DNA from: a virus
Direction: 5' to 3' (one strand)
Length of the DNA: 20,721 bases
IMG/VR virus record: IMGVR_UViG_3300008963_000726
Coordinates: 1-20,721 of that record
The notes under the pieces were generated by a model. It worked only from the letters and a program-made list of their open reading frames with translations, made no database searches and was not told the origin of the DNA. This document shows positions 730 to 20,721 of this stretch, piece after piece (within the stretch, counting starts at the first letter, position 1; each line of letters starts with the position of its first letter). Both the position numbers and the translations under genes were made by a program.

Positions 730-803
730 CGACCTCTTTTTGCTGAGGCACCATTGATATGAATTATTATGATCACAACACTAAACAAACTACGGAGACA
801 CGC

Positions 804-2483: not shown

Positions 2484-2716
2484 TGAGTGTCGTAATCTGG
2501 TCCAAGGACAATTGCTTTTACTGCCATATGGCAAAAGGACTCCTTGCCCGCGAAGGGATCGAGTATGAAGAGCGGAATATCGAATCAGGTGACTGGTCTC
2601 GGGCTCAAATGCTCGAGGCCGTACCTGACGCCAAAACCGTCCCGCAGATTTTCTTTGGTGAGGAGCACGTTGGTGGTTTTACTGAATTGCAAGAACACTT
2701 GAGGAGTTCTCGATGA
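2483..2716 (+). CDS. grx: Glutaredoxin (RNR reductant)
   Basis: A 77-residue glutaredoxin, comparable to T4 NrdC and bacterial Grx3. The sequence shows the N-terminal beta strand, the dithiol active site C-F-Y-C (residues 11-14), the cis-Pro motif TVPQIFF and the GG-F-T-E-L glutathione-binding turn near residues 63-70. It probably re-reduces the C-terminal cysteine pair of NrdA in the cytoplasm. The start codon overlaps the nrdA stop (TGATG, 2481-2485) and its own stop overlaps the glyA start, so the three are likely translationally coupled. A generic thioredoxin-like role is the alternative, but the position strongly favours service to RNR. Confidence 0.93.
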   Translation: MSVVIWSKDNCFYCHMAKGLLAREGIEYEERNIESGDWSRAQMLEAVPDAKTVPQIFFGEEHVGGFTELQEHLRSSR

Positions 2717-3873: not shown

Positions 3874-5179
3874 TCCTATTTTACTGTCGCGAGTTCAATT
3901 CGCATTTGTAGTATCCTTTCATGCGATCTTCCCGGTCTTCTCGATCGGTATTGCATCGTTTGTCGCGCTGCTCGAGGCACTATATTACAAGACAGGGGAT
4001 GAAGCATATGCCCGACTGTCGGCATTCTGGACCAAGATTTTCGCTATCGCATTCGGAATGGGAGTCGTGTCTGGTATTGTCATGTCGTTCCAATTCGGGA
4101 CTAACTGGTCGCAATTCGCGTACGCGACCGCCAATTTCCTTGGCCCTGTCCTGTCATATGAGGTGATCACGGCGTTCTTCCTTGAGGCTGCATTCCTCGG
4201 AGTCCTGTTGTTTGGGCGAGATCGAGTACCCAAGGGTGTCCATCTGTTTGCCGCGTGTATGGTCGCGCTCGGCACGTTTATATCTTCGTTCTGGATTCTG
4301 GCAGCGAATTCTTGGATGCACACGCCGGCAGGAGTCGAGGCCATCAATGGCTCTTTCCATGTAACCGATTGGACAGCGGCGATTTTTAATCCGTCTTTCC
4401 CATACCGATTTGCACACATGGGGGTCGCATCATTCCTGACCGGTGCATTTGTCGTGGGTGGCGTGTCATCGTGGTTCCTGATTCGTGGAGTTGATACACT
4501 TGCTCACCGAAAGGCCCTGTCAATGTGTCTGTGGCTGATGCTATTCTTAGCTCCCGCACAAGTTCTGATTGGTGACTTTCATGGACTGAATACGTTGGAG
4601 CATCAGCCGGCGAAAATCGCTGCGATGGAGGGGAATTGGGAGACGCAGTCGAATGTACCACTCTTGTTGTTTGCGATCCCCGATCAGGAGAATCAGACCA
4701 ATCATCTCGAACTTGGTATCCCATCACTCGCGTCGATCATCCTCAAGCATGAGGCCGATGGTGTAGTACCCGGGCTTGATATTCTGCCGGTCGAAGAGCA
4801 ACCACCCGTCGCGGCGGTGTTTTGGTCATTCCGCGTGATGGTCGGGATCGGTGTTCTGATGGTCCTTGCTGGTCTGTGGGGACTGATCGCACGACTTCGT
4901 GGGACGATCAATCAACCTTGTGTTCTGCATCGGTTCTTGGTGCTGATGATCCCGGCACCATTCATTGCAGTCCTCGCTGGATGGTTTGTCACCGAGATCG
5001 GGCGGTCCCCTTGGCTTGTCTATGGGCATATGCAGTACGCTGAGGGGATAACGCCTTCTCTTTCTGGGCCGTTAGCACTGACTAGCCTTGTCGGTTTTGG
5101 TATGTTATACTTGGTGGTATATGCATCAGGATTATATTATATCACCAAGACAGTTAAGGCGGGTACTTCAGATGGCTAA
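3857..5179 (+). CDS. cydA: Cytochrome bd-type quinol oxidase subunit I (CydA/CioA-like)
   Basis: Membrane subunit of cytochrome bd oxidase, which oxidises quinol and reduces O2 with haems b558, b595 and d. All expected residues are visible in the 440-residue product: His22 (RVQFAFVVSFH; haem b595/d), Glu102 and Glu110 (SYEVITAFFLE; proton path), His187 (RFAHMG) and Met328 (FWSFRVMVG) for haem b558, and the Q-loop set GDFHG...QPAKIAAMEGNW with Lys253 and Glu258. About nine hydrophobic segments are seen. The Q loop is short, as in the cyanide-insensitive (Cio) branch. ATG 3857 lies inside the glyA 3' end with GAGG 6 bases upstream. No cydB or cydX follows: the next genes are tiny and unrelated. 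The gene appears intact, so it is probably a phage auxiliary metabolic gene whose product pairs with host CydB. That pairing is inference. Confidence 0.95.
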   Translation: MEQLLDPILLSRVQFAFVVSFHAIFPVFSIGIASFVALLEALYYKTGDEAYARLSAFWTKIFAIAFGMGVVSGIVMSFQFGTNWSQFAYATANFLGPVLSYEVITAFFLEAAFLGVLLFGRDRVPKGVHLFAACMVALGTFISSFWILAANSWMHTPAGVEAINGSFHVTDWTAAIFNPSFPYRFAHMGVASFLTGAFVVGGVSSWFLIRGVDTLAHRKALSMCLWLMLFLAPAQVLIGDFHGLNTLEHQPAKIAAMEGNWETQSNVPLLLFAIPDQENQTNHLELGIPSLASIILKHEADGVVPGLDILPVEEQPPVAAVFWSFRVMVGIGVLMVLAGLWGLIARLRGTINQPCVLHRFLVLMIPAPFIAVLAGWFVTEIGRSPWLVYGHMQYAEGITPSLSGPLALTSLVGFGMLYLVVYASGLYYITKTVKAGTSDG

Positions 5180-5381
5180 CTACATGGTCTATAGGGTTCT
5201 GCAAACCGGGGATCTCGAATTCTACGGGAAAAAGAGCAGATGGTTCAGCGATTGGACCCGCGCCAAGCTATACGATTATGATGGCGCCAGAAGCGTCAGG
5301 GCGTTGATCCAAAGCAACTGGCGCAAAAATCCGAGGGATTTCGCTGGAGTTAGCAAGGTGGATTATTGTAGCACCCATTGA
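5172..5381 (+). CDS. Small hypothetical protein (69 aa)
   Basis: The start ATG overlaps the cydA stop by 8 bases, and an AAGGCGGG stretch about 9 bases upstream can serve as the ribosome site. The product is basic and aromatic-rich. Its central stretch (FYGKK-RW-SDW--AKLYDYDGA-SV-ALIQ) resembles the middle of the next small gene (5439-5678), so the two may be distant paralogues of one small phage family. The stop codon TGA lies within the -35 box of the next promoter, so the gene ends exactly where the following unit begins. I do not recognise a function and there are no membrane segments. Confidence 0.7.
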   Translation: MANYMVYRVLQTGDLEFYGKKSRWFSDWTRAKLYDYDGARSVRALIQSNWRKNPRDFAGVSKVDYCSTH

Positions 5382-5406
5382 CAACAATGCCGCCCCATGG
5401 TATAAT
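5378..5406 (+). promoter_or_regulatory. Sigma70 promoter P1
   Basis: TTGACA (5378-5383), 17-base spacer, TATAAT (5401-5406), with an extended -10 TGG just upstream of the -10. The -35 is embedded in CACCCATTGACA, a context shared with the other promoters in the window. It reads into the gene at 5439. The leader contains GTAGTCAAG (5413-5421), exactly 17 bases before that start codon. Confidence 0.92.
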
Positions 5407-5438
5407 AAAAGTGTAGTCAAGACGAAGGATATTAGATC

Positions 5439-5678
5439 ATGATTTATTGGGGCGAACACGTCGTATTTCAGCGGTATAAGAATTTTGAAACTCAAAAGAC
5501 TGATCATTTGTACTTTGCCGGCCGTGGTAAGTGGGTTACTGATCCTTCGAATGCCAAGATCTACAAAACGTGGCACTCGGCTTGTGTTGTGAAGGGTATG
5601 ATGCAAAAACGTCTTTATGAAGGTGCTGACGAATTCCAATACACCTATAGCTTTGGAACCCTTAAGGCCACCGATTAA
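5439..5678 (+). CDS. Small hypothetical protein (79 aa)
   Basis: Driven by its own strong promoter (P1). GAAGGAT, about 10 bases before the ATG, is a plausible ribosome site. The product is rich in Tyr, Trp, Lys and His. The stretch YFAGRGKWVTDPSNAKIYKTW (residues 25-45) resembles the preceding gene product (5172-5381). That layout, with a glycine/basic turn, W-x-x-D, A-K-x-Y, then an amphipathic helix, recurs in small early proteins of many phages. The function is unknown. A strong dedicated promoter suggests immediate-early expression, possibly acting on a host target (inference). Confidence 0.75.
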   Translation: MIYWGEHVVFQRYKNFETQKTDHLYFAGRGKWVTDPSNAKIYKTWHSACVVKGMMQKRLYEGADEFQYTYSFGTLKATD

Positions 5679-5686
5679 GACACCCA

Positions 5687-5715
5687 TTGACACCAGTGTC
5701 GACACATGGTATAAT
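5687..5715 (+). promoter_or_regulatory. Sigma70 promoter P2
   Basis: TTGACA (5687-5692), 17-base spacer, TATAAT (5710-5715), preceded by an extended -10 TGG. Upstream context is CACCCATTGACA. It begins 9 bases after the stop of the 5439 gene and reads into the gene at 5748. Its leader (GTAGTTTTTGGTTGATGA...) resembles that of the promoter at 18480. Confidence 0.92.
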
Positions 5716-5747
5716 GTAGTTTTTGGTTGATGAAAAGCGGAGTCCAC

Positions 5748-6020
5748 ATGATGATCAAGAATCGAAATCAGTTAGCCAGAATTCTGCGTGAAAACGATTT
5801 GGCCGATAAGGTGATTATCCACCACTACAACGAAGTCGAAATCTACCTCCAAGACGAGGAAGGTTATACCGATTACGGTGCTACGGATGACACTTTCAAC
5901 GAGGTCACCAAGCTCCTCGGTTGGGGTGGATTTTCTACCGGGTACGGTGGTTGGATCTTGAAGCAGAACTTTCAGGACTTGGGAGATTGGAATGACAAAT
6001 CAAGCCGTTGGCACTACTGA
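5748..6020 (+). CDS. Small hypothetical protein (90 aa)
   Basis: Two adjacent ATGs (5748 and 5751) follow GCGGAG (5737-5742); spacing is 5 or 8 bases, so either could be used. An in-frame TTG at 5727 lacks a ribosome site. The product begins with a basic helix (MIKNRNQLARILRENDLAD), continues with an acidic middle and ends in a Gly/Trp-rich part (LLGWGGF-TGYGGW). No known domain is recognised. The gene sits immediately downstream of P2 and its 3' end overlaps the next gene by 29 bases, so the two are probably cotranscribed. Confidence 0.72.
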   Translation: MMIKNRNQLARILRENDLADKVIIHHYNEVEIYLQDEEGYTDYGATDDTFNEVTKLLGWGGFSTGYGGWILKQNFQDLGDWNDKSSRWHY

Positions 6021-6180
6021 AGCTATGGAAACCGTCAAGGAATACGGTGAAAAAAATGGCATCACGGGGATCTACGAGATCCTCAATCGGATGTCCGAGG
6101 ACACCGATTCCTTGACCCCTGAACAAATCCGTGCGATGACGATGGTCATGGTAGAACTTTCCGCCCCCGATCTGTGGTAA
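5992..6180 (+). CDS. Small hypothetical protein (62 aa)
   Basis: ATG 5992 has GGGAG (5981-5985) six bases upstream, inside the end of the preceding gene. The product looks fully helical, with a C-terminal half like LTPEQIRAMTMVMVELSAP. It has no cysteines or membrane segment. It is likely cotranscribed from P2. The function is unknown. Confidence 0.65.
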   Translation: MTNQAVGTTEAMETVKEYGEKNGITGIYEILNRMSEDTDSLTPEQIRAMTMVMVELSAPDLW

Positions 6181-6237
6181 CAGGTTTGGGGATCGCGGGG
6201 ACTAAATAGCCGAGAAATCAATATACTGGAGGCTATA

Positions 6238-6408
6238 ATGACTAAATGTATGTCCTGTGAAGTATCCTTCGACGTCACTTTCGAGGAAGTCGACGCGGAG
6301 CTCAATTTTTGTCCCCAATGCGGTCAGGTTATCATCGAAGACATCGAGTTGATCGAAGATTCCTTCGACATCGACCACGACATCTTGTACGATGACGAAG
6401 CCGAATAA
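6238..6408 (+). CDS. Small zinc-ribbon protein (56 aa)
   Basis: A short gene with a strong GGAGG (6228-6232) five bases before ATG 6238. The product starts M-T-K-C-M-S-C and continues to F-C-P-Q-C-G, giving two CxxC knuckles about 18 residues apart, which is a classic zinc ribbon. A very acidic tail follows (many Asp and Glu, ending DDEAE). Such proteins often bind nucleic acid or partner proteins; the negative tail argues against simple DNA binding and suggests a protein partner such as RNA polymerase (inference). It is not part of a larger gene. Confidence 0.7.
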   Translation: MTKCMSCEVSFDVTFEEVDAELNFCPQCGQVIIEDIELIEDSFDIDHDILYDDEAE

Positions 6409-6421
6409 TCATTCAAACTTG

Positions 6422-6461
6422 ATAAATACTCTCGAGAATAATTATATGAGAGAGTGTTTAT
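6422..6461. repeat. 12-bp inverted repeat with late-promoter-like element
   Basis: ATAAATACTCTC (6422-6433) pairs with GAGAGTGTTTAT (6450-6461) over 12 positions with one G-T pair, around a 16-base A/T-rich loop. There is no T tract, so it is not a standard terminator. The left arm, GATAAATAC, matches the ATAAATA core of T4-family late promoters. The right arm ends about 4 bases before the GIY-YIG gene start (6466), so in RNA the hairpin could hide that gene's GAGAG ribosome site. Confidence 0.6.
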
Positions 6462-6465
6462 CATC

Positions 6466-6888
6466 ATGTCCGAGTGGATTTATGAAGGCCGCGAGTTCGA
6501 ACCCCCCGAAGATTTCAACCCCAAGACCCTATACGGATTCGTGTATCTCATCGAGAATCTCGCGAATGGGCGCAAATATATCGGGAAAAAATTGATGTGG
6601 GCCTCCAAGAGTTACCAGCTCAACAAGCGTAAACGGCGCCGGAAAGTCGAATCCGACTGGCGAGATTATTTCGGGTCATCCGAAGAACTCCTCGGGGATG
6701 TCGAAAAATATGGTCCCGAGAACTTCCGTCGTACCATCCTTCATCTTTGCACCACCAAAGGGGAGTGTTCATACCTCGAGGCCAAAGAGCAATTCGCTCG
6801 GGACGCTCTGTTGTCCGACGAATACTATAATTCATGGATCTCCGTCAAAGTCCGTAAATCCCACGTCCCCCATATGCTCGCGGAATAA
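6466..6888 (+). CDS. GIY-YIG endonuclease-like protein (SegE-like)
   Basis: The N-terminal half contains GFVYLIENLANGRKYIGKK (about residues 23-41). This fits the GIY-YIG nuclease core, with VYL replacing the GIY triplet and YIG intact. Later come a basic stretch (NKRKRRRKVESDW) and conserved YFGSS and C-S-Y-L-E-A-KEQ, where the Glu would be the metal-binding residue. It resembles the Seg-like GIY-YIG proteins widespread in T4-type phages, usually ~130-160 residues; this one is 140. ATG 6466 is preferred over GTG 6454, since GAGAG lies about 12 bases before 6466 but directly abuts 6454. The role could be homing or DNA processing. No intron or disrupted host gene is seen beside it, so it may be a free-standing, resident enzyme. 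Confidence 0.8.
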   Translation: MSEWIYEGREFEPPEDFNPKTLYGFVYLIENLANGRKYIGKKLMWASKSYQLNKRKRRRKVESDWRDYFGSSEELLGDVEKYGPENFRRTILHLCTTKGECSYLEAKEQFARDALLSDEYYNSWISVKVRKSHVPHMLAE

Positions 6889-6898
6889 TTCTACCCCA

Positions 6899-6927
6899 TT
6901 GACAACATATTCTGGGTATGATATAAT
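6899..6927 (+). promoter_or_regulatory. Sigma70 promoter P3
   Basis: TTGACA (6899-6904), 17-base spacer, TATAAT (6922-6927), in the context CTACCCCATTGACA. It lies in the short gap after the GIY-YIG gene. The leader contains GTAGTCAAG (6934-6942), 17 bases before ATG 6960, as in P1. Confidence 0.92.
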
Positions 6928-6959
6928 AAAAGGGTAGTCAAGAAAAAGAGATGTTAGAT

Positions 6960-7181
6960 ATGACCTACCGGATCAAGCCAATTGAAATGATGGACGCTGA
7001 CCAGATCGCTATCCATGTTCGCTGCGGCGACATTACGATGGCACAGGCCGAGGTGATTCATCACCCCAATCGCATTCGAGCTGCTAAACGCCGAATCGCG
7101 GATGTTGAGCAAATCGAAGAAGACCATCGTAATGCTCCTTGTATTAGCACCAAGGAAATGCTTGATATGGTGATGCGGTGA
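6960..7181 (+). CDS. Small hypothetical protein (73 aa)
   Basis: ATG 6960 is preferred over ATG 6951. It has AAGAG nine bases upstream, and its distance to the leader motif GTAGTCAAG (17 bases) is identical to that of the 5439 gene under P1. The product is mostly helical with many charged residues (AAKRRIADVEQIEEDH) and two isolated cysteines. No family is recognised. The stop codon forms part of the terminator stem at 7175-7195, so this is a monocistronic promoter-gene-terminator unit. Confidence 0.7.
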   Translation: MTYRIKPIEMMDADQIAIHVRCGDITMAQAEVIHHPNRIRAAKRRIADVEQIEEDHRNAPCISTKEMLDMVMR

Positions 7182-7199
7182 TTCTACCTCACCGCTTTT
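7175..7199 (+). terminator. Rho-independent terminator
   Basis: GCGGTGA (7175-7181), 7-base loop, TCACCGC (7189-7195), then TTTT. The left arm includes the stop codon of the 6960 gene. It ends the P3 transcript seven bases before the next promoter begins. Confidence 0.8.
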
Positions 7200-7205
7200 A
7201 CCCCA

Positions 7206-7234
7206 TTGACACGTATAACCCACTGTGGTATAAT
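7206..7234 (+). promoter_or_regulatory. Sigma70 promoter P4
   Basis: TTGACA (7206-7211), 17-base spacer, TATAAT (7229-7234), extended -10 TGG, context TTACCCCATTGACA. The leader again has GTAGTCAAG (7241-7249). It drives the genes starting at 7277 and 7491. Confidence 0.92.
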
Positions 7235-7276
7235 AAAAGGGTAGTCAAGGGAAAAATGACAATTGAGGTACTCGAA

Positions 7277-7468
7277 ATGATGAACTTCACTAGCGCGATT
7301 AACATCCTACGCGGTTATGCCGCAAATGAGCTTGGTGTCAACAGCAACGGCGTCCCTGAAATCATCGAAGCTGTCCAGCAGGATGACACCGATATCTCGG
7401 AAATCCCGATGGACGTACGACGAGCCTACCGCGTCGTGATGGGGGATTTGAGCAAGCTTCTTGGTTAA
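7277..7468 (+). CDS. Small hypothetical protein (63 aa)
   Basis: Lies just after P4. ATG 7277 has GAGG (7265-7268) eight bases upstream; an in-frame ATG at 7256 with AAGGG four bases upstream is the alternative and would add seven residues. Any start upstream of about 7240 would lie before the transcript start. The product is helical (INILRGYAANELGV; VRRAYRVVMGDLSKLLG) with a short acidic middle. The function is unknown. Confidence 0.65.
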   Translation: MMNFTSAINILRGYAANELGVNSNGVPEIIEAVQQDDTDISEIPMDVRRAYRVVMGDLSKLLG

Positions 7469-7490
7469 TTTGGTTACAGGAGATCATATC

Positions 7491-7703
7491 ATGAGCAACG
7501 AATTCAATAAGGTACTTGGGATGTCAGCTGAATACTTGGCGACTGCCATCGAAAGCAACTCCGATGATATCGTCGACATCGTGTTCGACAATTACTCAGC
7601 CGGCGAAGATGAGCAGAATGAGGTTGCCGAAAACGTCGAGCGGGTCTTGGTGGATCTTCTCCGCGATGTTGCCGCCAATCCCGACAAATACCGGGGACAA
7701 TGA
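7491..7703 (+). CDS. Small acidic hypothetical protein (70 aa)
   Basis: ATG 7491 has AGGAG (7478-7482) eight bases upstream, which settles the start over an in-frame upstream ATG at 7461. The product is acidic and helical (ESNSDDIVDIVFDNYSAGEDEQNEVAENV is spread over residues 21-50), with no cysteines. It is likely cotranscribed with the 7277 gene from P4. No family is recognised. Confidence 0.65.
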   Translation: MSNEFNKVLGMSAEYLATAIESNSDDIVDIVFDNYSAGEDEQNEVAENVERVLVDLLRDVAANPDKYRGQ

Positions 7704-7732
7704 TTGATCCGTGGGTTTCCCCATGGTACAAT
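7704..7732 (+). promoter_or_regulatory. Sigma70 promoter P5 (weaker)
   Basis: TTGATC (7704-7709), 17-base spacer, TACAAT (7727-7732), with the same CCCCATGG just before the -10 that P1 carries. It is less perfect than the others but has the same geometry and stands in the gap upstream of the 7756 gene. Confidence 0.7.
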
Positions 7733-7755
7733 AAAATTTTTATGATGGAGATATG

Positions 7756-7929
7756 ATGATGCGTGAAGCTACTAACAAATTGCTCGAGATGGTTGAAGAA
7801 GGGATCGTTGACAAAGACTACGTGATCATGGCTTGTGTCAAATACATGTCAGAAGACGATGTCGCGGACATGATGCAACTCAACGATTTGATGATCGACG
7901 ACGAGGAAGATGACGATGAAGATGCCTGA
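7756..7929 (+). CDS. Small acidic hypothetical protein (57 aa)
   Basis: Three consecutive ATGs (7753, 7756, 7759) follow GGAG (7747-7750); 7756 gives a 5-base spacing and 7759 gives 8. The product is helical with a strongly acidic C-terminus (DDEEDDDEDA). It overlaps the following membrane-protein gene by about 14 bases. P5 probably drives it. No family is recognised. Confidence 0.62.
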   Translation: MMREATNKLLEMVEEGIVDKDYVIMACVKYMSEDDVADMMQLNDLMIDDEEDDDEDA

Positions 7930-8107
7930 TATGATGTTCAAGATTGCAGCAATTATCTTTATGACCGGAATTGTGGTGGCCTTGGGTGCCGAGGCCCACT
8001 CCGATATGATTGGTTTCATGCTCCAGATCGCGATCGGTCTTTGTGTAATGACCATCGGGGTCATTATCGGAGCTCCTTATGTCGACGACAAGGATACGGA
8101 TGCATGA
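7916..8107 (+). CDS. Small two-helix membrane protein (63 aa)
   Basis: GAGGAAG (7903-7909) inside the previous gene precedes several in-frame ATGs (7910, 7916, 7922); 7916 has the best spacing. Two hydrophobic segments (about residues 8-27 and 33-54) are joined by a short polar turn, AEAHSD, and followed by an acidic C-terminal tail (DDKDTDA). It is likely an inner-membrane protein. Its stop overlaps the rnh start (ATGA at 8104-8107), so its expression is coupled to rnh. The function is unknown. Confidence 0.68.
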   Translation: MKMPDMMFKIAAIIFMTGIVVALGAEAHSDMIGFMLQIAIGLCVMTIGVIIGAPYVDDKDTDA

Positions 8108-8955
8108 TTCTAGTCGATTTTAATGGTGTGGCGATCGGGTCTATCGTATCTCAGAATCTTGAGGTCGATGAAGATCTGATTCGCCACACGATACTAAACA
8201 CGCTCCGAGCGGTCAACAAACGATTTCGATCCAAGTATGGGGGCATCGTAATCGCGTGTGATTCGAGATCATGGCGCCGGGATTATTTCCCGAATTATAA
8301 ATATAAGCGCCGGAAATCCAAGCGCGAGGATTCCAAGGACTGGGATGAGATCACCCGGATCGCGAATCAGATGCTCGATGAAATCCGCGAGAATTTCCAC
8401 TACAAAGTCATCAAGGTCGAGGGCGCCGAGGCTGATGATATCATCGGGGCGCTGGCGCTTGAGGCACAAGAATTCGGGCGCGGTGAAAACGTCTTGATCA
8501 TCTCGGCCGATAAAGACTTCTTGCAGCTCCAGAAGTTCAAGAACGTCGATCAGTATTCTCCGCACAAGGGCGAGTTCGTCCGAGAGCAAAATCCCCGGAC
8601 ATTCCTGTTTGAGCACATTCTCAAGGGCGATTCCTCTGATGGCATCCCGAATGTCCTGTCGGATGATGATATCTTCTTGCAGGAAGGTACCCGTCAGTCC
8701 CCGGTCACCAAAAAGAAGATCGAAGCTTGGACAGCCGGGATCGATGATCTCCAAGGGACTATGGACGAGGAGGTATACCGGAATTTCAAGCGCAATAAAG
8801 TGCTGATCGATCTGGAAGAGATGCCACAGGAGATACGGGAAGAGATCGTCGCTAAGTATGATGAATCCACCCCCACGGACAAGAGCAAAATCTTTAATTA
8901 CCTGATCAAGTATCGGTGCAAAAATCTACTTTCTGACATAGAGGACTTTTACTAA
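8104..8955 (+). CDS. rnh: RNase H / 5'-3' exonuclease, T4 Rnh type (FEN1 family)
   Basis: Removes RNA primers and short 5' flaps on lagging-strand fragments. The 283-residue product (T4 Rnh is 305) shows the FEN1-like acidic sites: Asp5 (MILVDFNGV), Asp53 (IACDSR), Glu109 with Asp111/Asp112 (EGAEADDIIG), Asp136 and Asp138 (ISADKDF), and then a helix-turn-helix-like GDSSDGIPN (175-183). The start is ATG 8104, overlapping the upstream stop, because the frame upstream of it does not look like this family. The order rnh then DUF6433-like gene is common in T4-like phages of marine bacteria (from memory), which supports the phage type. Confidence 0.92.
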   Translation: MILVDFNGVAIGSIVSQNLEVDEDLIRHTILNTLRAVNKRFRSKYGGIVIACDSRSWRRDYFPNYKYKRRKSKREDSKDWDEITRIANQMLDEIRENFHYKVIKVEGAEADDIIGALALEAQEFGRGENVLIISADKDFLQLQKFKNVDQYSPHKGEFVREQNPRTFLFEHILKGDSSDGIPNVLSDDDIFLQEGTRQSPVTKKKIEAWTAGIDDLQGTMDEEVYRNFKRNKVLIDLEEMPQEIREEIVAKYDESTPTDKSKIFNYLIKYRCKNLLSDIEDFY

Positions 8956-8957
8956 TC

Positions 8958-9398
8958 ATGCCGGTCAACAAAATTACAAACATGCGAGTCTACGAGATCT
9001 TCGAGAAGGTCGCGGAAGTTCATTCCCAGAAACAAAAAGCCGAGATTCTGCGCCAGTACAATAACCGGGCAGTTCGGGATGTGTTGAAAGGGGCGTTTGA
9101 TGATACAGTACAATTCGTTCTCCCGGAAGGTACGCCTCCGTATACCCCCGGATCGTCGGAGAGCCCGGGGTCATCGCTCCTGAAGCAGTCGAAGAAATTC
9201 CGGTACTTTGTCGTATCGTCGGATCGTAGCAAATCGGACCCCAAGGTAGAGAAGATTTTCATTCAGCTTCTGGAATCGATCCATCCCAAAGACGCAGAGA
9301 TCGTGGTGAAGATGAAAGACAAAGATCTCAAAGGGATGTATCACGGCTTAACTAAAAAGCTCGTACAAGACGCTTTCCCGGGTCTGATTCAGGAGTAA
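8958..9398 (+). CDS. Conserved T4-like phage protein (DUF6433-like)
   Basis: A 146-residue protein beginning two bases after the rnh stop. It shows features I associate with an uncharacterised family found next to rnh in T4-like cyanophages: an N-terminal helical region (EIFEKVAEVHSQKQKAEILRQ), then LKGAFDDTVQFVLPEGTPPYTP, a KKFRYFV strand and a C-terminal LVQDAFPGLI. The DUF number is from memory. No catalytic motif is visible. The neighbour suggests a role in DNA replication or recombination, but this is only guilt by association. Confidence 0.75.
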   Translation: MPVNKITNMRVYEIFEKVAEVHSQKQKAEILRQYNNRAVRDVLKGAFDDTVQFVLPEGTPPYTPGSSESPGSSLLKQSKKFRYFVVSSDRSKSDPKVEKIFIQLLESIHPKDAEIVVKMKDKDLKGMYHGLTKKLVQDAFPGLIQE

Positions 9399-9404
9399 TT
9401 GACG

Positions 9405-9956
9405 ATGTCTCGTGACATCTGGGTGATCTCCGATACACATTTTATCCACAAGAACATCCTCGGGTTCACCGACAACGATGGTAACCCAATGCGTCCGGGA
9501 TTTGACTCGGTTAGCCACATGAACGAGTACATGATCGAGAAGTGGAATTCGGTGGTCAAACCCGGGGATATCGTGTACCATTGTGGCGATGTGTTCATCG
9601 GTCCTAAAGAGGACTTCCTCCCGCTGTTCAAGCGGTTACACGGGACCAAACGATTGATCGTCGGGAACCACGATGACATCAAATTCATGGCCAAAAAGGA
9701 ACTGTTTACCAAGATTACGATGTGGCGGATGTTCCGTGAGTTTGGTCTGCTGCTGACTCATGCCCCTGTACATGAATCCTCTCTGCGGCGAGGACCACCC
9801 GGACATGAGCATGATCCCGAGTACGATAAGCGTAGATTGGTCAATATTCACGGCCATATTCATGATAAGCCATCTCCACCCGGGCCTTATCGCTGCGTGT
9901 GTGTTGAGCAGATCAATTATACCCCAGTCAACATTGAAGACTTGAGGATTAGATAA
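9405..9956 (+). CDS. Calcineurin-like metallophosphoesterase
   Basis: The 183-residue product has the full metallophosphoesterase signature: DTH (D10, H12), GD at 61-62, GNHD (87-90), a THAP histidine at 119 and NIHGHIHD (147-154). These residues bind a two-metal centre that hydrolyses phosphomonoesters or diesters. AGGAG (9391-9395) lies nine bases before ATG 9405, so the in-frame TTG at 9399 is not needed. Small enzymes of this type are frequent in phages. The substrate cannot be read from sequence; 5'-nucleotide, cyclic nucleotide or DNA-end substrates are all possible. The stop overlaps the next start (TAATG). Confidence 0.88.
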   Translation: MSRDIWVISDTHFIHKNILGFTDNDGNPMRPGFDSVSHMNEYMIEKWNSVVKPGDIVYHCGDVFIGPKEDFLPLFKRLHGTKRLIVGNHDDIKFMAKKELFTKITMWRMFREFGLLLTHAPVHESSLRRGPPGHEHDPEYDKRRLVNIHGHIHDKPSPPGPYRCVCVEQINYTPVNIEDLRIR

Positions 9957-10372
9957 TGACAGATTTCGATCATCGACCCGTCCATGACATCGAAGCTATT
10001 GCTCAGCATTACACCGAAAAAGACGGCGTCCCGGTGCGATATGTCTGTACGACGGCGCTTGGTGATGCGGCGATCGCCTTTGATATCTTCTATCGAGACA
10101 CACCGCACCCCAAGTTTGGCAACCGATACTTTGGGATTTATGATAATCCTAGAGACGGCAGAATGTATATCACCAACGCCGACGAAGTCGAGGATTATGA
10201 ATTCAAATGCGGTGTGACGGAAGATGACCGGCTCGTGTACTCTCGGCATCGGTACGATTTGGTCGAAGTCGACGGTGGTGCCCTTGACGGTGGTCGCTCG
10301 TATACCCGTGTGATCGGTGACGTCGGGGTATTGAACGCCCGCGTAAAAGATGGTATGATGTACATAGTATGA
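9956..10372 (+). CDS. Hypothetical protein (138 aa)
   Basis: The start overlaps the phosphoesterase stop (TAA 9954-9956, ATG 9956). The product is predicted beta-rich, with many Tyr, Asp and Gly residues (DIFYRDTPHPKFGNRYFGIY; RMYITNADEVEDYEFKCG). It resembles small folded phage proteins of unknown role. No known catalytic motif is seen. The next promoter (10331-10359) lies within its 3' end. Confidence 0.72.
   Translation: MTDFDHRPVHDIEAIAQHYTEKDGVPVRYVCTTALGDAAIAFDIFYRDTPHPKFGNRYFGIYDNPRDGRMYITNADEVEDYEFKCGVTEDDRLVYSRHRYDLVEVDGGALDGGRSYTRVIGDVGVLNARVKDGMMYIV
10331..10359 (+). promoter_or_regulatory. Sigma70 promoter P6 (inside the 9956 gene)
   Basis: TTGAAC (10331-10336), 17-base spacer, TATGAT (10354-10359), extended -10 TGG. 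It overlaps the end of the 9956 gene and points to the gene at 10391, where a run of small genes starts. The -35 context lacks the CCCA prefix of the other promoters. Confidence 0.6.
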
Positions 10373-13159: not shown

Positions 13160-13840
13160 ATGCAGCAGCAGTCTCAGAAGAAAAAGAAGCTTACCACACA
13201 CGACATTGTATCCATCCAACCACTAACCGAAGCTCAAGAAGAAGCATTCCACGCATTCCACAATTACGACGTTCTATCACTCCTTGGCTCCGCCGGCACG
13301 GGGAAGACATTCCTCGCTTGCTATATGGGAATCCGAGCAATCGCCGAGGCAACTCATTCGAGACTCCTAATCGTGCGCTCTGCAGTCCCCTCGCGTGAAG
13401 TTGGGTACCTCCCGGGGACACTTGAAGAGAAAGAGCAAGTGTACGAGCGTCCTTATTATCCAATCTTTGACCAAATCTTGAAGTATAAATCGAACAATTA
13501 TATCAACATGAAAGACATCGGGGTCGTGGATTTCGAATCGACCTCGTATATGCGCGGTGAGACCTTCGACCACACAATCGTTATCTTCGACGAGGTGCAA
13601 AACGCATCATTTCAGGAATTGGACACCGTAATGACCCGGTGCGGTGAAAATACCAAGATGATCTTTGTCGGTGATGGACGTCAGGCAGATCTCCGGAAAA
13701 ATGGTCTGAATGACTTCATCACAGTGCTCCGGGAAATGGACTGCCATGGGGCAGTTGAATTCGGGGTGGCCGACGTGGTAAGATCAGGGATTGTGAAAGA
13801 ATATTTGATGGCAAAAGAAGAGGTCCTGAAATATGGATAA
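13160..13840 (+). CDS. phoH: PhoH-like ATPase
   Basis: The 226-residue product has a short basic, Gln-rich N-terminus, then Walker A GSAGTGKT (residues 43-50), IVRSAVPSREVGYLPGT (71-87, typical of PhoH) and Walker B IVIFDEVQNAS (Asp144, Glu145). It ends with the EVLKYG helix. PhoH-like P-loop ATPases are among the commonest genes of marine phages; their role, perhaps RNA metabolism or phosphate stress, is not settled. An in-frame stop at 13142 rules out a longer protein. The ribosome site is weak (AAGGA 12 bases upstream). Confidence 0.93.
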   Translation: MQQQSQKKKKLTTHDIVSIQPLTEAQEEAFHAFHNYDVLSLLGSAGTGKTFLACYMGIRAIAEATHSRLLIVRSAVPSREVGYLPGTLEEKEQVYERPYYPIFDQILKYKSNNYINMKDIGVVDFESTSYMRGETFDHTIVIFDEVQNASFQELDTVMTRCGENTKMIFVGDGRQADLRKNGLNDFITVLREMDCHGAVEFGVADVVRSGIVKEYLMAKEEVLKYG

Positions 13841-14003
13841 TGAGGACATAGTCCTAGACATTTCTAGCAAAGACTCGGGGTACATTGACCTGTGCCCCGG
13901 TCCCACCGTATTTGGTGGAATGATTGATTTGGGAGACGGTGGTGACGACGAGATCATCCTGTCGGTTAAAGACGATGATGACGACGAGGAAGACGATGGC
14001 TAA
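13833..14003 (+). CDS. Small acidic hypothetical protein (56 aa)
   Basis: The ATG overlaps the phoH stop by eight bases, with AAGAGG nine bases upstream. The product has a Cys-Pro-Gly turn, a Gly-rich middle and an acidic run of eight to ten Asp and Glu at the end. Its stop overlaps the next start (ATGGCTAA). No family is recognised, but overlaps on both sides and the ribosome site support a real gene. Confidence 0.6.
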   Translation: MDNEDIVLDISSKDSGYIDLCPGPTVFGGMIDLGDGGDDEIILSVKDDDDDEEDDG

Positions 14004-14160
14004 GCGTAAGAATGGTGCAACGAAATCAACCCGGCGTGAGCGTGTGGACAGTCGAATGTCGCATGTAGAATCTCGTAATTTCAAGCGCCAGAAGCACAGG
14101 GAAATGGAAGATATGCTTGTTGATGATATGGAGGATTACCTCTCGGATCATAGATTCTGA
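13996..14160 (+). CDS. Small basic hypothetical protein (54 aa)
   Basis: ATG 13996 overlaps the end of the acidic gene; GAGGAAG lies upstream within it. The N-terminal half is strongly basic (KRKNGATKSTRRERV, then NFKRQKHR) and the C-terminal half is acidic (MEDMLVDDMEDYLSD). A nucleic-acid or protein-binding role is conceivable but unproven. The stop is directly before the next promoter. Confidence 0.6.
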   Translation: MAKRKNGATKSTRRERVDSRMSHVESRNFKRQKHREMEDMLVDDMEDYLSDHRF

Positions 14161-14164
14161 CCCA

Positions 14165-14194
14165 TTGACCCATTTGCCCATTATCTGTTATAAT
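14165..14194 (+). promoter_or_regulatory. Sigma70 promoter P7 upstream of the Z-nucleotide cluster
   Basis: TTGACC (14165-14170), 18-base spacer, TATAAT (14189-14194), with the same GACCCATTGAC prefix as the other promoters. It is the first promoter before the 14233 gene and purZ-mazZ-datZ, so it is expected to transcribe the whole cluster. No terminator hairpin is obvious until much further downstream. Confidence 0.85.
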
Positions 14195-14232
14195 ATGCAT
14201 ACATGATGGAAGCAAAGTGTGAGGTGAACCCC

Positions 14233-14469
14233 GTGAGTATGAGATCGAGCATCACTGATGCAGAACACTATCACCTAGTTCAGTATATCAAGAATCTTAG
14301 ACTTACAGCCCCCGATCAGGTAGATCCTGATTCGTGGATTGTTGAAGGTCTATTATCCAAGGGTTGGGTGGCATCGACGACAACGAAGCCATCCCTCAAA
14401 CCCCGCCAAGTGGATCCACCCAAAAATCCTTGGCCTTTTGTGGTCGAGTCCGACGTAGATTACGATTAA
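14233..14469 (+). CDS. Small hypothetical protein (78 aa) before purZ
   Basis: GAGG (14221-14224) lies eight bases before GTG 14233. An in-frame ATG at 14203 would lie about 2 bases after the predicted transcript start, so it could only work as a leaderless start. The product has a helical N-terminal half (ITDAEHYHLVQYIKNLRL) and a proline-rich C-terminal half. No family is recognised. It ends 13 bases before purZ and lies in the same transcript. Confidence 0.62.
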   Translation: MSMRSSITDAEHYHLVQYIKNLRLTAPDQVDPDSWIVEGLLSKGWVASTTTKPSLKPRQVDPPKNPWPFVVESDVDYD

Positions 14470-14482
14470 GGAGATTATGAAT

Positions 14483-15577
14483 ATGAAGGCAAATCATGCG
14501 CCAAAGGCAACTATTATCTGTGACATGCAGTTCGGATCGACCGGGAAGGGTCTGTTCGCCGGCTATGCCGCACACCGGGACAAACCAGACGTCGTGATGA
14601 CCTCGTGGATGCCCAACTCAGGGCACACTTTTGTAGACTCGGACGGGCGCAAGTACGTCCACACTGCGCTAGCTAACGGGGTTGTATCCCCGAATCTACG
14701 GACCGTGCTTATCGGCCCCGGGTCGGTGGTCGACATCGATGCTCTGGCTGCCGAGGCCGCGAATTGTGCAGATCACCTCGAGAATGCCCGGATCTGGATT
14801 CACGAGAATGCGACGATCCTGTCCAAGGACCACAAAGAGGCTGAAGCTGGTGGGGCTAAAGTGTCGATCGGCTCTACCCGCAAGGGCTCAGGGGCTGCGA
14901 TGCAGCAGAAAATCGAGCGTGATCCCAAGATCCCGGTAACTGCGAAGCAGCACGAGGATATGGGCACCGGGGCTCTCGACAAGCTTCCTGAGTGCGCGGA
15001 AGTAATCACGCACATCGATTACATGGATGAGGTCATGCGGGCCGAACGCATCCAGATCGAGGGGGCACAGGGTTACTCACTCGGTGTGAATTCAGGATTT
15101 TACCCGTACACCACATCCCGTGAGTGCACCCCGACCCAGATCATGTCGGACACTCTACTCCCGGCTGATTATCTCAACAAAGTGATCGGGGTAGCGCGGA
15201 CGTTCCCGATTCGGGTGGCCAACCGTTACGATGACGAGGGCCGGATGATCGGGTGGTCGGGCCCTGTATACCCGGATCAGCGGGAACTAGATTGGGAAGA
15301 CTTGGGAATGGAGCCCGAGCTCACCACGGTCACCCAGCTTCCACGTAGGCTCTTTACCTTCTCGCGCTACCAGACCGGGGATGCAATTGTTGGAATTCGC
15401 CCGGACGAGATCGCCCTGAACTTCGCACAGTACTTGGAGCTTCCACAGTCCAAAGAAATGGGTCTGTCGCTTGATGCGGTGCACGAAATCATCGAGACTT
15501 GCTGTGAGACGTACGGAACTGGTAAACTGGCATACCTAGGATGGGGACCGAAAGAATCGGACATCGAGGTATTGTAA
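14483..15577 (+). CDS. purZ: N6-succino-2-amino-2'-deoxyadenylate synthase (PurZ; PurA homologue)
   Basis: PurA-family ligase that, as PurZ, joins Asp to dGMP; host PurB then gives dZMP (2-aminoadenine deoxynucleotide). Seen in order (numbering from ATG 14483, chosen because AAGGAG is 9 bases upstream, versus 3 for ATG 14477): MQFGSTGKG (residues 15-23), aligned with the PurA P-loop QWGDEGKG, with Ser19 in place of the catalytic Asp; NSGHT with His48 kept; LIGPGSVVD; STRKGSGAAM; the EGAQG...GFYPYTTS block; and TTVTQLPRR, the aspartate-binding loop. The 364-residue length suits PurZ-type and short PurA proteins (E. coli PurA is 432). The Asp-to-Ser change, with mazZ and datZ next door, separates it from ordinary PurA. 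Substrate use is inferred from the family. Confidence 0.9.
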   Translation: MKANHAPKATIICDMQFGSTGKGLFAGYAAHRDKPDVVMTSWMPNSGHTFVDSDGRKYVHTALANGVVSPNLRTVLIGPGSVVDIDALAAEAANCADHLENARIWIHENATILSKDHKEAEAGGAKVSIGSTRKGSGAAMQQKIERDPKIPVTAKQHEDMGTGALDKLPECAEVITHIDYMDEVMRAERIQIEGAQGYSLGVNSGFYPYTTSRECTPTQIMSDTLLPADYLNKVIGVARTFPIRVANRYDDEGRMIGWSGPVYPDQRELDWEDLGMEPELTTVTQLPRRLFTFSRYQTGDAIVGIRPDEIALNFAQYLELPQSKEMGLSLDAVHEIIETCCETYGTGKLAYLGWGPKESDIEVL

Positions 15578-15578
15578 G

Positions 15579-16355
15579 ATGGGTCTGGCCTACAAATTCG
15601 ACACTCACAAACCGAGACTAACCCTCGTCGACCCCAACTTCATCGAAATGATAGCTGGGGCTCTCGGGGAGGGGGAGCGCAAGTACTCGGGCCCTGCGTG
15701 GAAGCAGGGTCTTAAATTCTCGCGGATTCTGGATGCTGCTCGCCGTCACACCGCGGCGATCGAGAAGGGTGAAGATATTGACCCTGACTCCGGATACCCG
15801 CATTCTGCGCATGTTGCGTGTTGTATGATGATGTATGAATATTTGAGGAGCAATTGGAATGGAGATGAAGAACTCGACGATCGAAACTTCGGAAAGTCCA
15901 CCGACCGAGAAGATGTGCCGGGTGTGCAAGACTCTGAAGAGCGCCAAGGACTTTTACCCCTCGCGCCTAGCGAAGAAGGACTACGTGTGCAAGAAATGCA
16001 GCAACGTGAGAGCGTCCAAGACAATTCGCAAGCGCAGGGAAACGGCTGCAGCAGCTCCGACTCCCTAGGGGAGCTGTCGACCCGGATTATCGACTGGGCG
16101 AATCGCGAATTCCCGGGTCGGACCGCCGAGACCTCGCTAATCAAGCTCACGGTAGAAGAAATCCCGGAGCTTCTGAATGGGGGCTTGGATGACCCGCTAG
16201 AATTCGCTGATGTGTTAATCCTGTTGATTGATGTGGCATATCTTCGGGGCATCGATATCATCGGGGCTGCGAACCAAAAGATGGACATCAATGAACAAAG
16301 ACACTGGACAGTGGACCCGAACACCGGGATTTCACACCACATAGAAGGAACATAG
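15579..16355 (+). CDS. mazZ: dATP/dGTP pyrophosphohydrolase (MazZ), two-domain
   Basis: In Z-genome phages, MazZ hydrolyses dGTP (and dATP) to the monophosphate, feeding dGMP to PurZ. Residues 1-92 match the dATP/dGTP diphosphohydrolase N-terminal domain: KPRLTLVDPNFI, ERKYSGPAWKQGL, AARRHTAAIEKGEDIDPDSGYPHSAH. Residues 166-258 match the all-alpha MazG-like catalytic part: KLTVEEIPELL (Glu193, Glu194, Glu197) and LEFADVLILLIDVAY (Glu208, Asp211), the ExxE and ExxD metal sites. GAGG lies eight bases before ATG 15579. Residues 93-165 form an odd, low-similarity, Gln/Ser-rich linker that coincides with a zinc-ribbon gene in another frame. The C-terminal domain has no ATG, GTG or TTG of its own near its start, so it is probably made as part of this fusion. 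Confidence 0.85.
   Translation: MGLAYKFDTHKPRLTLVDPNFIEMIAGALGEGERKYSGPAWKQGLKFSRILDAARRHTAAIEKGEDIDPDSGYPHSAHVACCMMMYEYLRSNWNGDEELDDRNFGKSTDREDVPGVQDSEERQGLLPLAPSEEGLRVQEMQQRESVQDNSQAQGNGCSSSDSLGELSTRIIDWANREFPGRTAETSLIKLTVEEIPELLNGGLDDPLEFADVLILLIDVAYLRGIDIIGAANQKMDINEQRHWTVDPNTGISHHIEGT
15859..16068 (+). CDS. Zinc-ribbon protein overprinted in the mazZ linker (69 aa)
   Basis: Lies in the +1 frame wholly inside mazZ. ATG 15859 has a strong GAGGAG (15845-15850) eight bases upstream. The product shows M-C-R-V-C-K-T-L-K-S-A-K-D-F-Y-P and V-C-K-K-C-S-N-V-R-A-S-K (residues ~20-52), two CxxC knuckles about 20 residues apart with an aromatic motif between, and a basic tail (KTIRKRRETAAAAPTP). This is the look of the short zinc ribbons found in phage HNH/endonuclease-type or DNA-binding proteins. 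Codon choice in this frame (AAG, TCG, GCC) is closer to the rest of the window than that of the mazZ frame here. The function is unknown. Confidence 0.72.
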   Translation: MEMKNSTIETSESPPTEKMCRVCKTLKSAKDFYPSRLAKKDYVCKKCSNVRASKTIRKRRETAAAAPTP

Positions 16356-16357
16356 AA

Positions 16358-16897
16358 ATGTCAACAGCTAACATGAGCCTCCGAGACGTGTATCGCTCTT
16401 CCACCGTCAAGCGCTGGGGTATTGTCGCGATCTCAAAGGAGCAATCCGTGGCCGAGCACACTTTCCAAGTCACGATGATCGCATCCCGCTTGTGTGACAT
16501 GATGGGAGAGTCTGAAGTAGTACGGGGTCAGGTGATCGAGTACGCGCTGGTGCACGATATGGCCGAAGTGCTCACCGGTGACATGGCGACCCCGCTCAAA
16601 GACTTCATCGGACCAGAAGCGAAAGCTCGACTCGAGAAGTTCGAAGAGCAGATCTTAGTACTCGGCCGCTCAATCGAGACGGGTGACCGGATCAAGTGGA
16701 TCGTCAAGATTGCAGATTTGGTCGAGGCCATCACATTCCTGAATCAGCATTCGATCACCGAGCACGGCAAGCAGGTCGCCGGCTATTTACGAGAGAAGCT
16801 CGATCGGGTGTCCGCCGAGTACGGAACTAAGGCACTCGACGAGATCGAGAATTCAGAGATGGTCACCCTCGACCGAGTGATCAACAACGCGGTATAG
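16358..16897 (+). CDS. datZ: HD-domain dATP triphosphohydrolase (DatZ-like)
   Basis: Probably removes dATP, and perhaps dADP, to deoxyadenosine, keeping adenine out of Z-containing DNA. The 179-residue product has the HD metal set: SVAEHTFQV (His34), VHDMAEVLTGDM (His66, Asp67, Glu70, Asp75) and KIADLVEAI (Asp120). The conserved RW (residues 19-20) before it is also seen in YfbR and DatZ enzymes. YfbR 5'-deoxynucleotidases have the same motif layout and similar size, so specificity cannot be settled from sequence. The position directly after purZ and mazZ favours DatZ. GAAGGA lies eight bases before ATG 16358 and mazZ ends two bases upstream. Confidence 0.85.
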   Translation: MSTANMSLRDVYRSSTVKRWGIVAISKEQSVAEHTFQVTMIASRLCDMMGESEVVRGQVIEYALVHDMAEVLTGDMATPLKDFIGPEAKARLEKFEEQILVLGRSIETGDRIKWIVKIADLVEAITFLNQHSITEHGKQVAGYLREKLDRVSAEYGTKALDEIENSEMVTLDRVINNAV

Positions 16898-16903
16898 ATC
16901 ATA

Positions 16904-17128
16904 ATGCCATTCGACGAACTAATTGACGCCATGCACATCGGGACTTTCGTGAAAGTCTGGGATTCAGAAAATGAATCTTGGCTGTACGGCACTCTTGCCA
17001 CTAAAGACACGAAAAAGAGAATCGGGACCATCATGGTCCCCGGGATCAATGAAGGTGTAGTTAGGCATAAAGACGAAATCTACAAATCAGATGTTGCCGA
17101 GTGGATCGAGAACAACTCGAGGAGCTAG
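16904..17128 (+). CDS. Hypothetical protein (74 aa)
   Basis: Starts six bases after the datZ stop, with no strong ribosome site. The beta-rich sequence (GTFVKVWDSENESWLYGTL, then KKRIGTIMVPGI) suggests a small SH3-like barrel or nucleic-acid-binding fold, but no family is recognised. The 3' end overlaps the ribosome-binding region of the next gene. It probably shares the P7 transcript. Confidence 0.65.
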   Translation: MPFDELIDAMHIGTFVKVWDSENESWLYGTLATKDTKKRIGTIMVPGINEGVVRHKDEIYKSDVAEWIENNSRS

Positions 17129-17133
17129 CAGTT

Positions 17134-17844
17134 GTGATAGAAGAAGATTATCAGGCTTGGGAAGCATATCCGCAATACAGGTGGGTATTCAATAAGCTCG
17201 AAATGGCGCTTAGACTAGGGTATCGTGCAGGGCCGGCGGCAACCTCGGTCACAGAGCCCGGGTATTATGTCATTCGCCCGATCTATAACTTGTACGGGAT
17301 GGGTATAGGGGCTAGCGTTGTATATCTCGATCCCGATCAAGATCGTGAGGCGATGCTCAATCATGCGTATTGTGCCCCCGGGACTTTTTGGTGTGAGTAT
17401 TTTGATGGTGTCCACCAGTCAGTGGATTTCAATCGTATCAATGGTGAGTGGGTGGCCCGATCCGCCACCATTGGCAGTCATCGCAGCACAGACAATCTGG
17501 TAGAATTTGATAGTTGGATCAAAATCACCCCGACTAGCCATATCGCGGATTCCCTTCCCGGCTTTATCCATGATATCGGTGTACCGCATATGAACATCGA
17601 GTACAAAGGAGACAAGATCATCGAGGTGCATCTTCGTCTTGGGAATGATCCTTTTGATCAATATCCAATTGGTACTCACATCATCCCAGTCTGGGAGGGC
17701 GGTGATTATAGTGCATATGAAAGGGCCCCCAATTGGAAATTCATTGGCAACATGCACGATGATCTGGAGACATACCGAGCATCTGGGTTGATTAAGAGAG
17801 CCAGACTCGGATATTACGTATCACAAAATCTAGAGGTAAATTGA
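17134..17844 (+). CDS. Conserved large-phage protein of unknown function (236 aa)
   Basis: GTG 17134 is chosen because AGGAG (17120-17124) sits nine bases upstream; a GTG at 17101 overlaps the previous gene and lacks a site. The sequence matches a family I recall from T4-like marine phages: QYRWVFNKLEMALRLGYRAGP (about residues 15-35), YYVIRPIYNLYGMGIGA, PGTFWCEYFDGVHQSVD, then GDKIIEVHLRLGNDPF and GTHIIPVW. The series of strands and late H-L-R/N-D residues somewhat recalls ATP-grasp enzymes, but I cannot support that from motifs alone. It lies in the same transcript as the Z cluster. Confidence 0.78.
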   Translation: MIEEDYQAWEAYPQYRWVFNKLEMALRLGYRAGPAATSVTEPGYYVIRPIYNLYGMGIGASVVYLDPDQDREAMLNHAYCAPGTFWCEYFDGVHQSVDFNRINGEWVARSATIGSHRSTDNLVEFDSWIKITPTSHIADSLPGFIHDIGVPHMNIEYKGDKIIEVHLRLGNDPFDQYPIGTHIIPVWEGGDYSAYERAPNWKFIGNMHDDLETYRASGLIKRARLGYYVSQNLEVN

Positions 17845-19537: not shown

Positions 19538-20721
19538 ATGACGGATAATTCAAGCCATATGGATATCAATTTTGTTGATATCGAGGGTCGTCGGATCTAC
19601 GCCGCTACCATCTATTGGCAGGACGGTTATATCACCAAGATCGAAGAATTCGGACCCGAGAATCCGGGTCTCGATTATTTGATCCCGGGGTTTGTCGACG
19701 CTCACGTTCACGTCGAAAGCACGATGCTCACACCGTCCGAATTCGGGCGGATGGCTTCGCGACAAGGGACCATTGCGACAATTAGTGACCCGCACGAGAT
19801 TGCCAACGTTCTCGGGATCGAGGGGGTGCGGTATATGGCAGAGAATGCGGCGACCCACAGCCCGATCCCGATTTACTTCGGAGCCCCGGCGTGTGTACCC
19901 GCCACCGACTTCGAAAACGCGGGAGCCACGCTATCTGTCGAAGATATCGAGCGGCTATTTGCCGAAGGAAGAGTAGATCATCTAGCCGAAGTCATGGATT
20001 TCCCCGGGGTGCTGGCGCGTGATCCTTCGTTGATGGACAAGATCGAGGTGGCTAAAAGTCGGGGATGTCGGGTCGATGGTCACGCCCCGGGACTAAAGGG
20101 CTCTGATGCACAGAATTATGCTGCTGCCGGAATTCATAATGATCACGAGTGTTCGAGCATCGAAGAAGCGGAAGATAAACTGGCCGCGGGCATGGATATC
20201 ATCATTCGCGAAGGATCAGCGGCCAAGAATCTCGATGCCTTGTGGCCTCTAATCGACCGGTATCCTGATCGGATCATGTTCTGCACCGATGATTTGCACC
20301 CCGATGACTTAGTCCTTGGACATGTCAATCGAATTGCCGCAGGGGCTATTAGGAAGGGAGCCGATCTCTTCAATGTCCTACGGGCGGCTTGCGTGAATCC
20401 GGTCAAGCATTACGATTTGGATGCCGGTCAACTTCGTGTGGGAGACTTCATGGATGGAGTGGTGGTCAAGGATCTCAATGATTTTGAGGTCATCCTCACT
20501 CTGGTTGGCGGCTTAGGGATCGTGCTCGAAGGCGAAAATGTCAGACACGATCATCATCCACCGGAAATCGTCAACAATTTTAATGCCGATCGTATCACCG
20601 CTGATGATTTGGTCGATGCACTCCCTCAGGGTAATTCGTCGTCTCAGATGCTTCGGGTTATCGAATGCCGAGAAGGGGCGCTTGATACCCGGGAGCTCAT
20701 CTTGGAACCGACTTGGGATGG
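19538..20721 (+). CDS. ade: Adenine deaminase (3' truncated by window edge)
   Basis: Amidohydrolase that converts adenine to hypoxanthine and ammonia. Seen: PGFVDAHVHVESTMLTPSEF (metal His pair), TISDPHEIANVLGIEG, DGHAPG, IHNDHECSS and FCTDDLHPDDL, the characteristic adenine deaminase blocks in order. The gene is open for 394 codons to the window edge; full enzymes are ~550-600 residues, so about a third is missing. The N-terminus is short, only ~50 residues before the metal motif against ~85-90 in E. coli Ade. AGGGG lies seven bases before ATG 19538. Together with purZ it would shift adenine toward hypoxanthine and guanine nucleotides (inference). Confidence 0.93.
   Translation, partial: MTDNSSHMDINFVDIEGRRIYAATIYWQDGYITKIEEFGPENPGLDYLIPGFVDAHVHVESTMLTPSEFGRMASRQGTIATISDPHEIANVLGIEGVRYMAENAATHSPIPIYFGAPACVPATDFENAGATLSVEDIERLFAEGRVDHLAEVMDFPGVLARDPSLMDKIEVAKSRGCRVDGHAPGLKGSDAQNYAAAGIHNDHECSSIEEAEDKLAAGMDIIIREGSAAKNLDALWPLIDRYPDRIMFCTDDLHPDDLVLGHVNRIAAGAIRKGADLFNVLRAACVNPVKHYDLDAGQLRVGDFMDGVVVKDLNDFEVILTLVGGLGIVLEGENVRHDHHPPEIVNNFNADRITADDLVDALPQGNSSSQMLRVIECREGALDTRELILEPTWD

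Follow-up and report, generated by a model that had tools for sequence, protein, structure and literature searches.

The three genes of a complete cassette for 2-aminoadenine (Z) synthesis, purZ, mazZ, and datZ, stand side by side in a T4-type phage contig from environmental DNA, as a first-pass annotation of its sequence had noted. We consider it likely (probability ca. 0.8) that a phage of the T4 superfamily acquired this siphovirus-type cassette and puts Z into its genome through a non-selective gp43 polymerase combined with the removal of dATP. The PurZ-MazZ-DatZ set lets some phages swap adenine (A) for Z, and Z-DNA has been associated with sipho- and podoviruses of smaller size whose polymerase is a PolA (DpoZ) or PrimPol. 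What is new here is a full Z cassette in a T4-type phage, given that the trait has so far been on record in the open-licence literature only in smaller phages with different replication machinery. If our reading is true, the Z trait would be a movable module compatible with virology’s best-studied replisome, and it could be tested directly how little it takes to turn an A genome into a Z genome and if control of the nucleotide pools is enough by itself.

Published Z phages have been described as members of the Siphoviridae or Podoviridae (PMC8342488, PMC8599892) and form at least seven gene-sharing groups (PMC12884076). Among the 198 records of the INPHARED database that match purZ, the matches listed measure 38–83 kb with none over 83.2 kb. 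Both the open-licence literature and these listed records agree with the earlier suggestion that the contig would extend the trait to another type of phage.

The purZ-mazZ-datZ operon

The window, i.e., the whole stretch of DNA that we analyzed, is the complete 20,721-base IMG/VR record IMGVR_UViG_3300008963_000726 and thus a fragment of a larger genome. Its list of open reading frames (ORFs) places purZ (positions 14477–15577; 366 aa), mazZ (15579–16355; 258 aa), and datZ (16358–16897; 179 aa) contiguously and head to tail on the plus strand with mazZ in the middle, so that together with the profile matches described below both the order and the enzyme identities originally given for these consecutive genes proved correct. 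The first gene of the operon is a small ORF of 88 aa (14203–14469, plus strand; ca. 78 aa if the GTG at 14233 is the start) between the promoter and purZ, for which we found no Pfam or PHROG match and no homologue among the Z loci tested. The GC content of purZ-mazZ-datZ is 0.54–0.57 compared to mostly 0.45–0.53 in the other genes measured (nearby phage genes), as expected if the block had been laterally acquired.

The purZ product is a predicted 2-amino-2'-deoxyadenylosuccinate synthetase that would join dGMP and aspartate. It scores 348 bits with the NCBI PurZ model NF038379 (cut-off 300), and phrog_1211 (“2-aminooxy adenylosuccinate synthetase”) matches it with 5.6e-80, while PurA models reach at most 121 bits (equivalog cut-offs of 368 or more). 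The best solved structures are those of PurZ from phiVC8 (6FM1) and S-2L (7ODX). In its motif QFGSTGKG, Ser21 occupies the position of PurA Asp13, and this serine is invariant in the 13 PurZs that we aligned; the description of the protein as a PurA homologue with serine in place of the catalytic aspartate therefore stands. A tree with characterized members, which had been proposed as a check, groups it with the PurZs of SH-Ab 15497, PMBT28, and S-2L in a clade of 22 rows (98/98), with the PurZ0 group apart. The closest PurZ that we found is 54% identical, and a single-sequence PurZ query against viral contigs gave no matches.

The candidate dATP/dGTP pyrophosphohydrolase MazZ does consist of two domains, PF18909 (residues 6–90) and PF04447 (residues 169–246), and is also matched by phrog_801. 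SH-Ab 15497 and PMBT28 are known to have this type of DUF5664-DUF550 fusion. Its best solved structure is S-2L MazZ (7ODY), and mapping onto the latter revealed that 8 of 8 residues are kept (E34, E35, E38, E50, D53, I56, D60, and R83), which include the catalytic E35/E38/E50/D53 as well as I56/D60 that confer guanine specificity in S-2L (PMC8342488). Similarly, the assignment of the third product as an HD-domain dATP triphosphohydrolase is supported by phrog_7076 (“dATP triphosphohydrolase”; 1.5e-32), by S-2L DatZ as best solved structure (6ZPA), and by conservation of all 16 checked residues with which S-2L DatZ contacts metal and phosphate or sets its specificity. In S-2L numbering, these are R19, W20, I22, Q29, A32, H34, H66, D67, E70, G74, D75, P79, K81, K116, D119, and E122, so that the HD metal ligands, R19/K81/K116, and W20/I22/P79 are all retained; residue roles, including that of I22 against the 2-amino group, have been described previously (PMC8065100). 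The three enzymes are predicted to have the activities of their characterized counterparts.

The closest parallels in gene order are SH-Ab 15497 (infecting Acinetobacter), PMBT28 (Salmonella), and Kokobel2 (Providencia) with genomes of 43–48 kb, which share the purZ-mazZ-datZ arrangement and the MazZ fusion; in alignments, their PurZ proteins are 51–52% and their DatZ proteins 29–35% identical to those of the window. However, in SH-Ab 15497 and PMBT28 a helicase, DNA polymerase I (DpoZ), and a DNA-binding protein precede purZ, whereas the window has an ORF without matches at this place, a T4-type core, and no PolA. In this respect it resembles S-2L, which also carries the triad without DpoZ (for the window, within the 20.7-kb fragment). 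Yet S-2L is a 45-kb phage with PrimPol and a single-domain MazZ, unlike the T4-type phage of the window with its fused MazZ and presumably gp43.

A T4-type lineage and its insertion site

The left 14 kb of the window encode a T4-type ribonucleotide reductase (RNR) cluster of nrdB, nrdA, and glutaredoxin (1–2716, plus strand), followed by glyA, a full-length cydA for cytochrome bd subunit I (3857–5179; 440 aa), the T4 RNase H gene rnh (8104–8955, plus strand; PF02739 and PF09293), phrog_461, phrog_385, and phoH (13160–13840, plus strand). The order RNR-phrog_447-rnh-phrog_461-phrog_385-phoH recurs in dozens of the 80 viral contigs that we found via rnh, and Melnitz, HTVC008M, and DLP6 have the same order from RNR to phoH, confirming the T4-type context that the first-pass annotation had recognized. 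Melnitz (Methylophilales), HTVC008M (Pelagibacter), and cyanomyoviruses share the RNR-rnh-phrog_461-phrog_385-phoH order with the window, but in these phages a PDDEXK nuclease follows phoH and there are no Z genes, while glyA-cydA are additional in the lineage of the window.

A query with cydA uncovered L399, a near-identical second assembly (99.86% identity over window positions 986–10269, i.e., 9.3 kb), and ten further contigs with 71–85% identical cydA and mostly the same gene order; in an eleventh, cydA is only 51% identical and nothing else is shared with the window. The run nrdB-nrdA-grx-glyA-cydA is typical of the lineage, in which cydA is conserved (L399–L410), and no cydB adjoins the cydA of the window. 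The window fragment contains none of T4-type gp43, gp23, gp17, and tail sheath. The lineage contig G091 has matches to gp17, tail sheath, uvsX, uvsW, and gp41. PurZ is absent from 12 lineage records of the cydA search and from 16 other T4-type records (mostly fragments in both cases), which suggests that the Z trait is sporadic.

The insertion site is covered by one member of the lineage, L411, a 14.1-kb sequence that represents the whole contig of L401. After its phoH, which is 81% identical to that of the window, come an acidic 65-aa ORF, a basic 60-aa ORF, and immediately a PDDEXK nuclease, and we therefore interpret L411 as the state without the insertion. These two small ORFs are the last genes common to the window (13833–14160, plus strand) and its Z-less sister, and DNA similarity stops at ca. 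14155 as the left edge of the insertion, beyond which the window carries the Z operon with its promoter. The PDDEXK nuclease is the next gene after phoH in most rnh-found contigs that extend beyond phoH and was not seen within 7 kb downstream of phoH in the window.

The promoter of the Z operon (14161–14194, plus strand) reads CCCATTGACC-N18-TATAAT. Its core TTGACC-N18-TATAAT at 14165–14194 matches at 11 of 12 promoter positions, in line with the sigma70 promoter that had been proposed ahead of the cluster, and makes early expression of the operon from a host-type promoter plausible. The window contains five more copies of the type CCCATTGAC-N18-TATAAT at 5374, 5683, 6895, 7202, and 18476 (0.00 expected in shuffles), and the copy at 14161 differs from them by a gap after CCCATTGAC of 19 bases, i.e., one base more. 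All six share the extended CCCATTGAC -35 region, appear to be phage-specific, and mostly lie ahead of runs of small ORFs, possibly as early promoters. The same promoter type is present in L399 and almost never occurs at any other locus.

These copies bear directly on whether the contig could be chimeric, with a T4-type phage and a fragment of a Z siphovirus joined near 14160. The phoH-purZ junction is joined in this contig only with no second contig across it, the join point falls between genes, and the GC content of the cassette is higher, all of which would fit such an artifact. However, the phage’s own promoter type occurs to the left, at the head, and to the right of the cassette as well as in near-identical L399, and for the gene at 17116–17841 in the right flank, the only homologues in the phage collection come from T4-type Synechococcus phages, with one more in the T4-type contig L170. 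These two observations make a chimera unlikely. Furthermore, the right flank is not shared by any Z contig that we found, and the nearest PurZ that our searches brought up is 54% identical. Altogether, we regard a chimeric contig as quite improbable and a Z operon residing in a T4-type phage genome as the better account.

Polymerase and proposed route to Z-DNA

We identified no polymerase gene in the 20.7-kb window, consistent with the earlier remark that a Z-specific polymerase is not encoded there. We expect that the phage uses gp43 because its T4-type relatives carry gp43-like PolB, as seen for Melnitz and two T4-type viral records; a DpoZ may also be encoded elsewhere in the genome outside of the fragment. 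In S-2L, the polymerase is non-selective, DatZ excludes A, and A is fully replaced (PMC8065100). Our proposed mechanism would follow this logic of S-2L rather than that of DpoZ. MazZ would convert dGTP to dGMP (and may cut dATP too), PurZ would join dGMP and aspartate, and host PurB together with host kinases would complete dZTP. With dATP cleared by DatZ, a T4-type family-B gp43 that need not discriminate would then insert Z. Virion DNA is thus predicted to contain Z.

Two other readings of the cassette have to be weighed. If the enzymes acted on nucleotide pools only, destruction of dATP would starve host replication or rival phages, and, with gp43 and ongoing dATP synthesis prevailing, the phage DNA would stay mostly A and contain Z in part or not at all. 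This idea draws on the lack of a Z-selective polymerase beside the cluster, compared to 183/241 purZ/mazZ loci whose fetched flanks include a DpoZ-like PolA, and on the phage’s own RNR, which would go on making dADP. It is nevertheless an unlikely explanation, since PurZ would be pointless if dZTP were left unused, the complete triad is retained with all specificity residues, and S-2L swaps A fully using a non-selective polymerase (PMC8065100). Even less credible, to the point of being nearly negligible, is that the three genes encode PurA, MazG-like, and YfbR-like enzymes of canonical purine metabolism. It is true that PF00709, PF12917, and PF13023 are general families and that an ordinary PurA does occur in the T4-type contig L162, but the serine in place of Asp13, the scores of 348 bits with the PurZ model versus no more than 121 bits for PurA models (cut-offs of 368 or more), and the position within the PurZ clade all speak against it. 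Incorporation of Z by a non-selective gp43 under dATP removal hence remains our preferred reading.

At its right end, the window encodes an adenine deaminase (19541–20719, plus strand; TIGR01178 with 353 bits and an alignment to 3NQB) that is cut by the contig end. None of the Z loci tested shares it, so that a role as a core Z gene is not supported; possibly, it is an accessory to purine recycling in which adenine from dATP breakdown would be turned into hypoxanthine and further into guanine nucleotides. In INPHARED, adenine deaminase was found in 10 records only, all of them unannotated Listeria, Campylobacter, or Enterococcus entries.

A second T4-type contig with PurZ

Using genes of the window and selected Melnitz genes, we tested 241 loci from the PurZ/MazZ scan (not all of them distinct contigs) and 44 more for a T4-type setting. 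The sole further T4-type Z contig for these 241 + 44 loci is IMGVR_UViG_3300033696_000004 with 119,931 bases, which was found via its PolB as the one match in ca. 70 record searches of large PurZ records; PolB was not found in 50 other purZ records. A locus-only tblastn misses this contig, whose replisome genes lie beyond the 10-kb flanks, and may miss other long-genome cases as well. On GTDB genome contigs, 0/7 loci were T4-like. The gene at 5297–6136 of L162, shortly after the PDDEXK nuclease of this T4-type contig, was rejected as a T4-type purZ: it encodes an ordinary PurA (QWGDEGKGK) without Z signature and represents the gain of a purine gene close to the same region.

The second contig encodes PurZ (336 bits with NF038379; 58% identical to phiVC8 PurZ) and the family-B polymerase gp43 alongside T4-type gp41, gp44, gp45, gp46, gp47, gp55, and uvsX, and it matches tail and baseplate proteins of Melnitz. 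Both contigs are thus T4-type with PurZ, but the PurZ of the second one groups with phiVC8 (clade 97/90), and forcing both T4-type PurZs into a common clade was rejected (p-AU 0.0001). From this placement and the rejected joint clade, we infer that T4-type phages gained PurZ at least twice. Also unlike the window, the second contig has no detectable PolA, HD_3, or MazG family and no DatZ or MazZ by profiles built for this analysis, which suggests that dATP clearance is not universal in the T4-type setting.

On balance, we lean slightly towards the view that the switch to Z-DNA took place at least twice among T4-type phages whose replisome is of the family-B kind (gp43, clamp, and clamp loader), each time through a separate gain of PurZ, once with a full dATP-clearing cassette and once apparently without DatZ or MazZ. 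Z-DNA would then need neither DpoZ nor PrimPol, and the second phage would have another means of excluding A or a mixed A/Z genome. Directly upstream of its purZ lies a radical-SAM gene.
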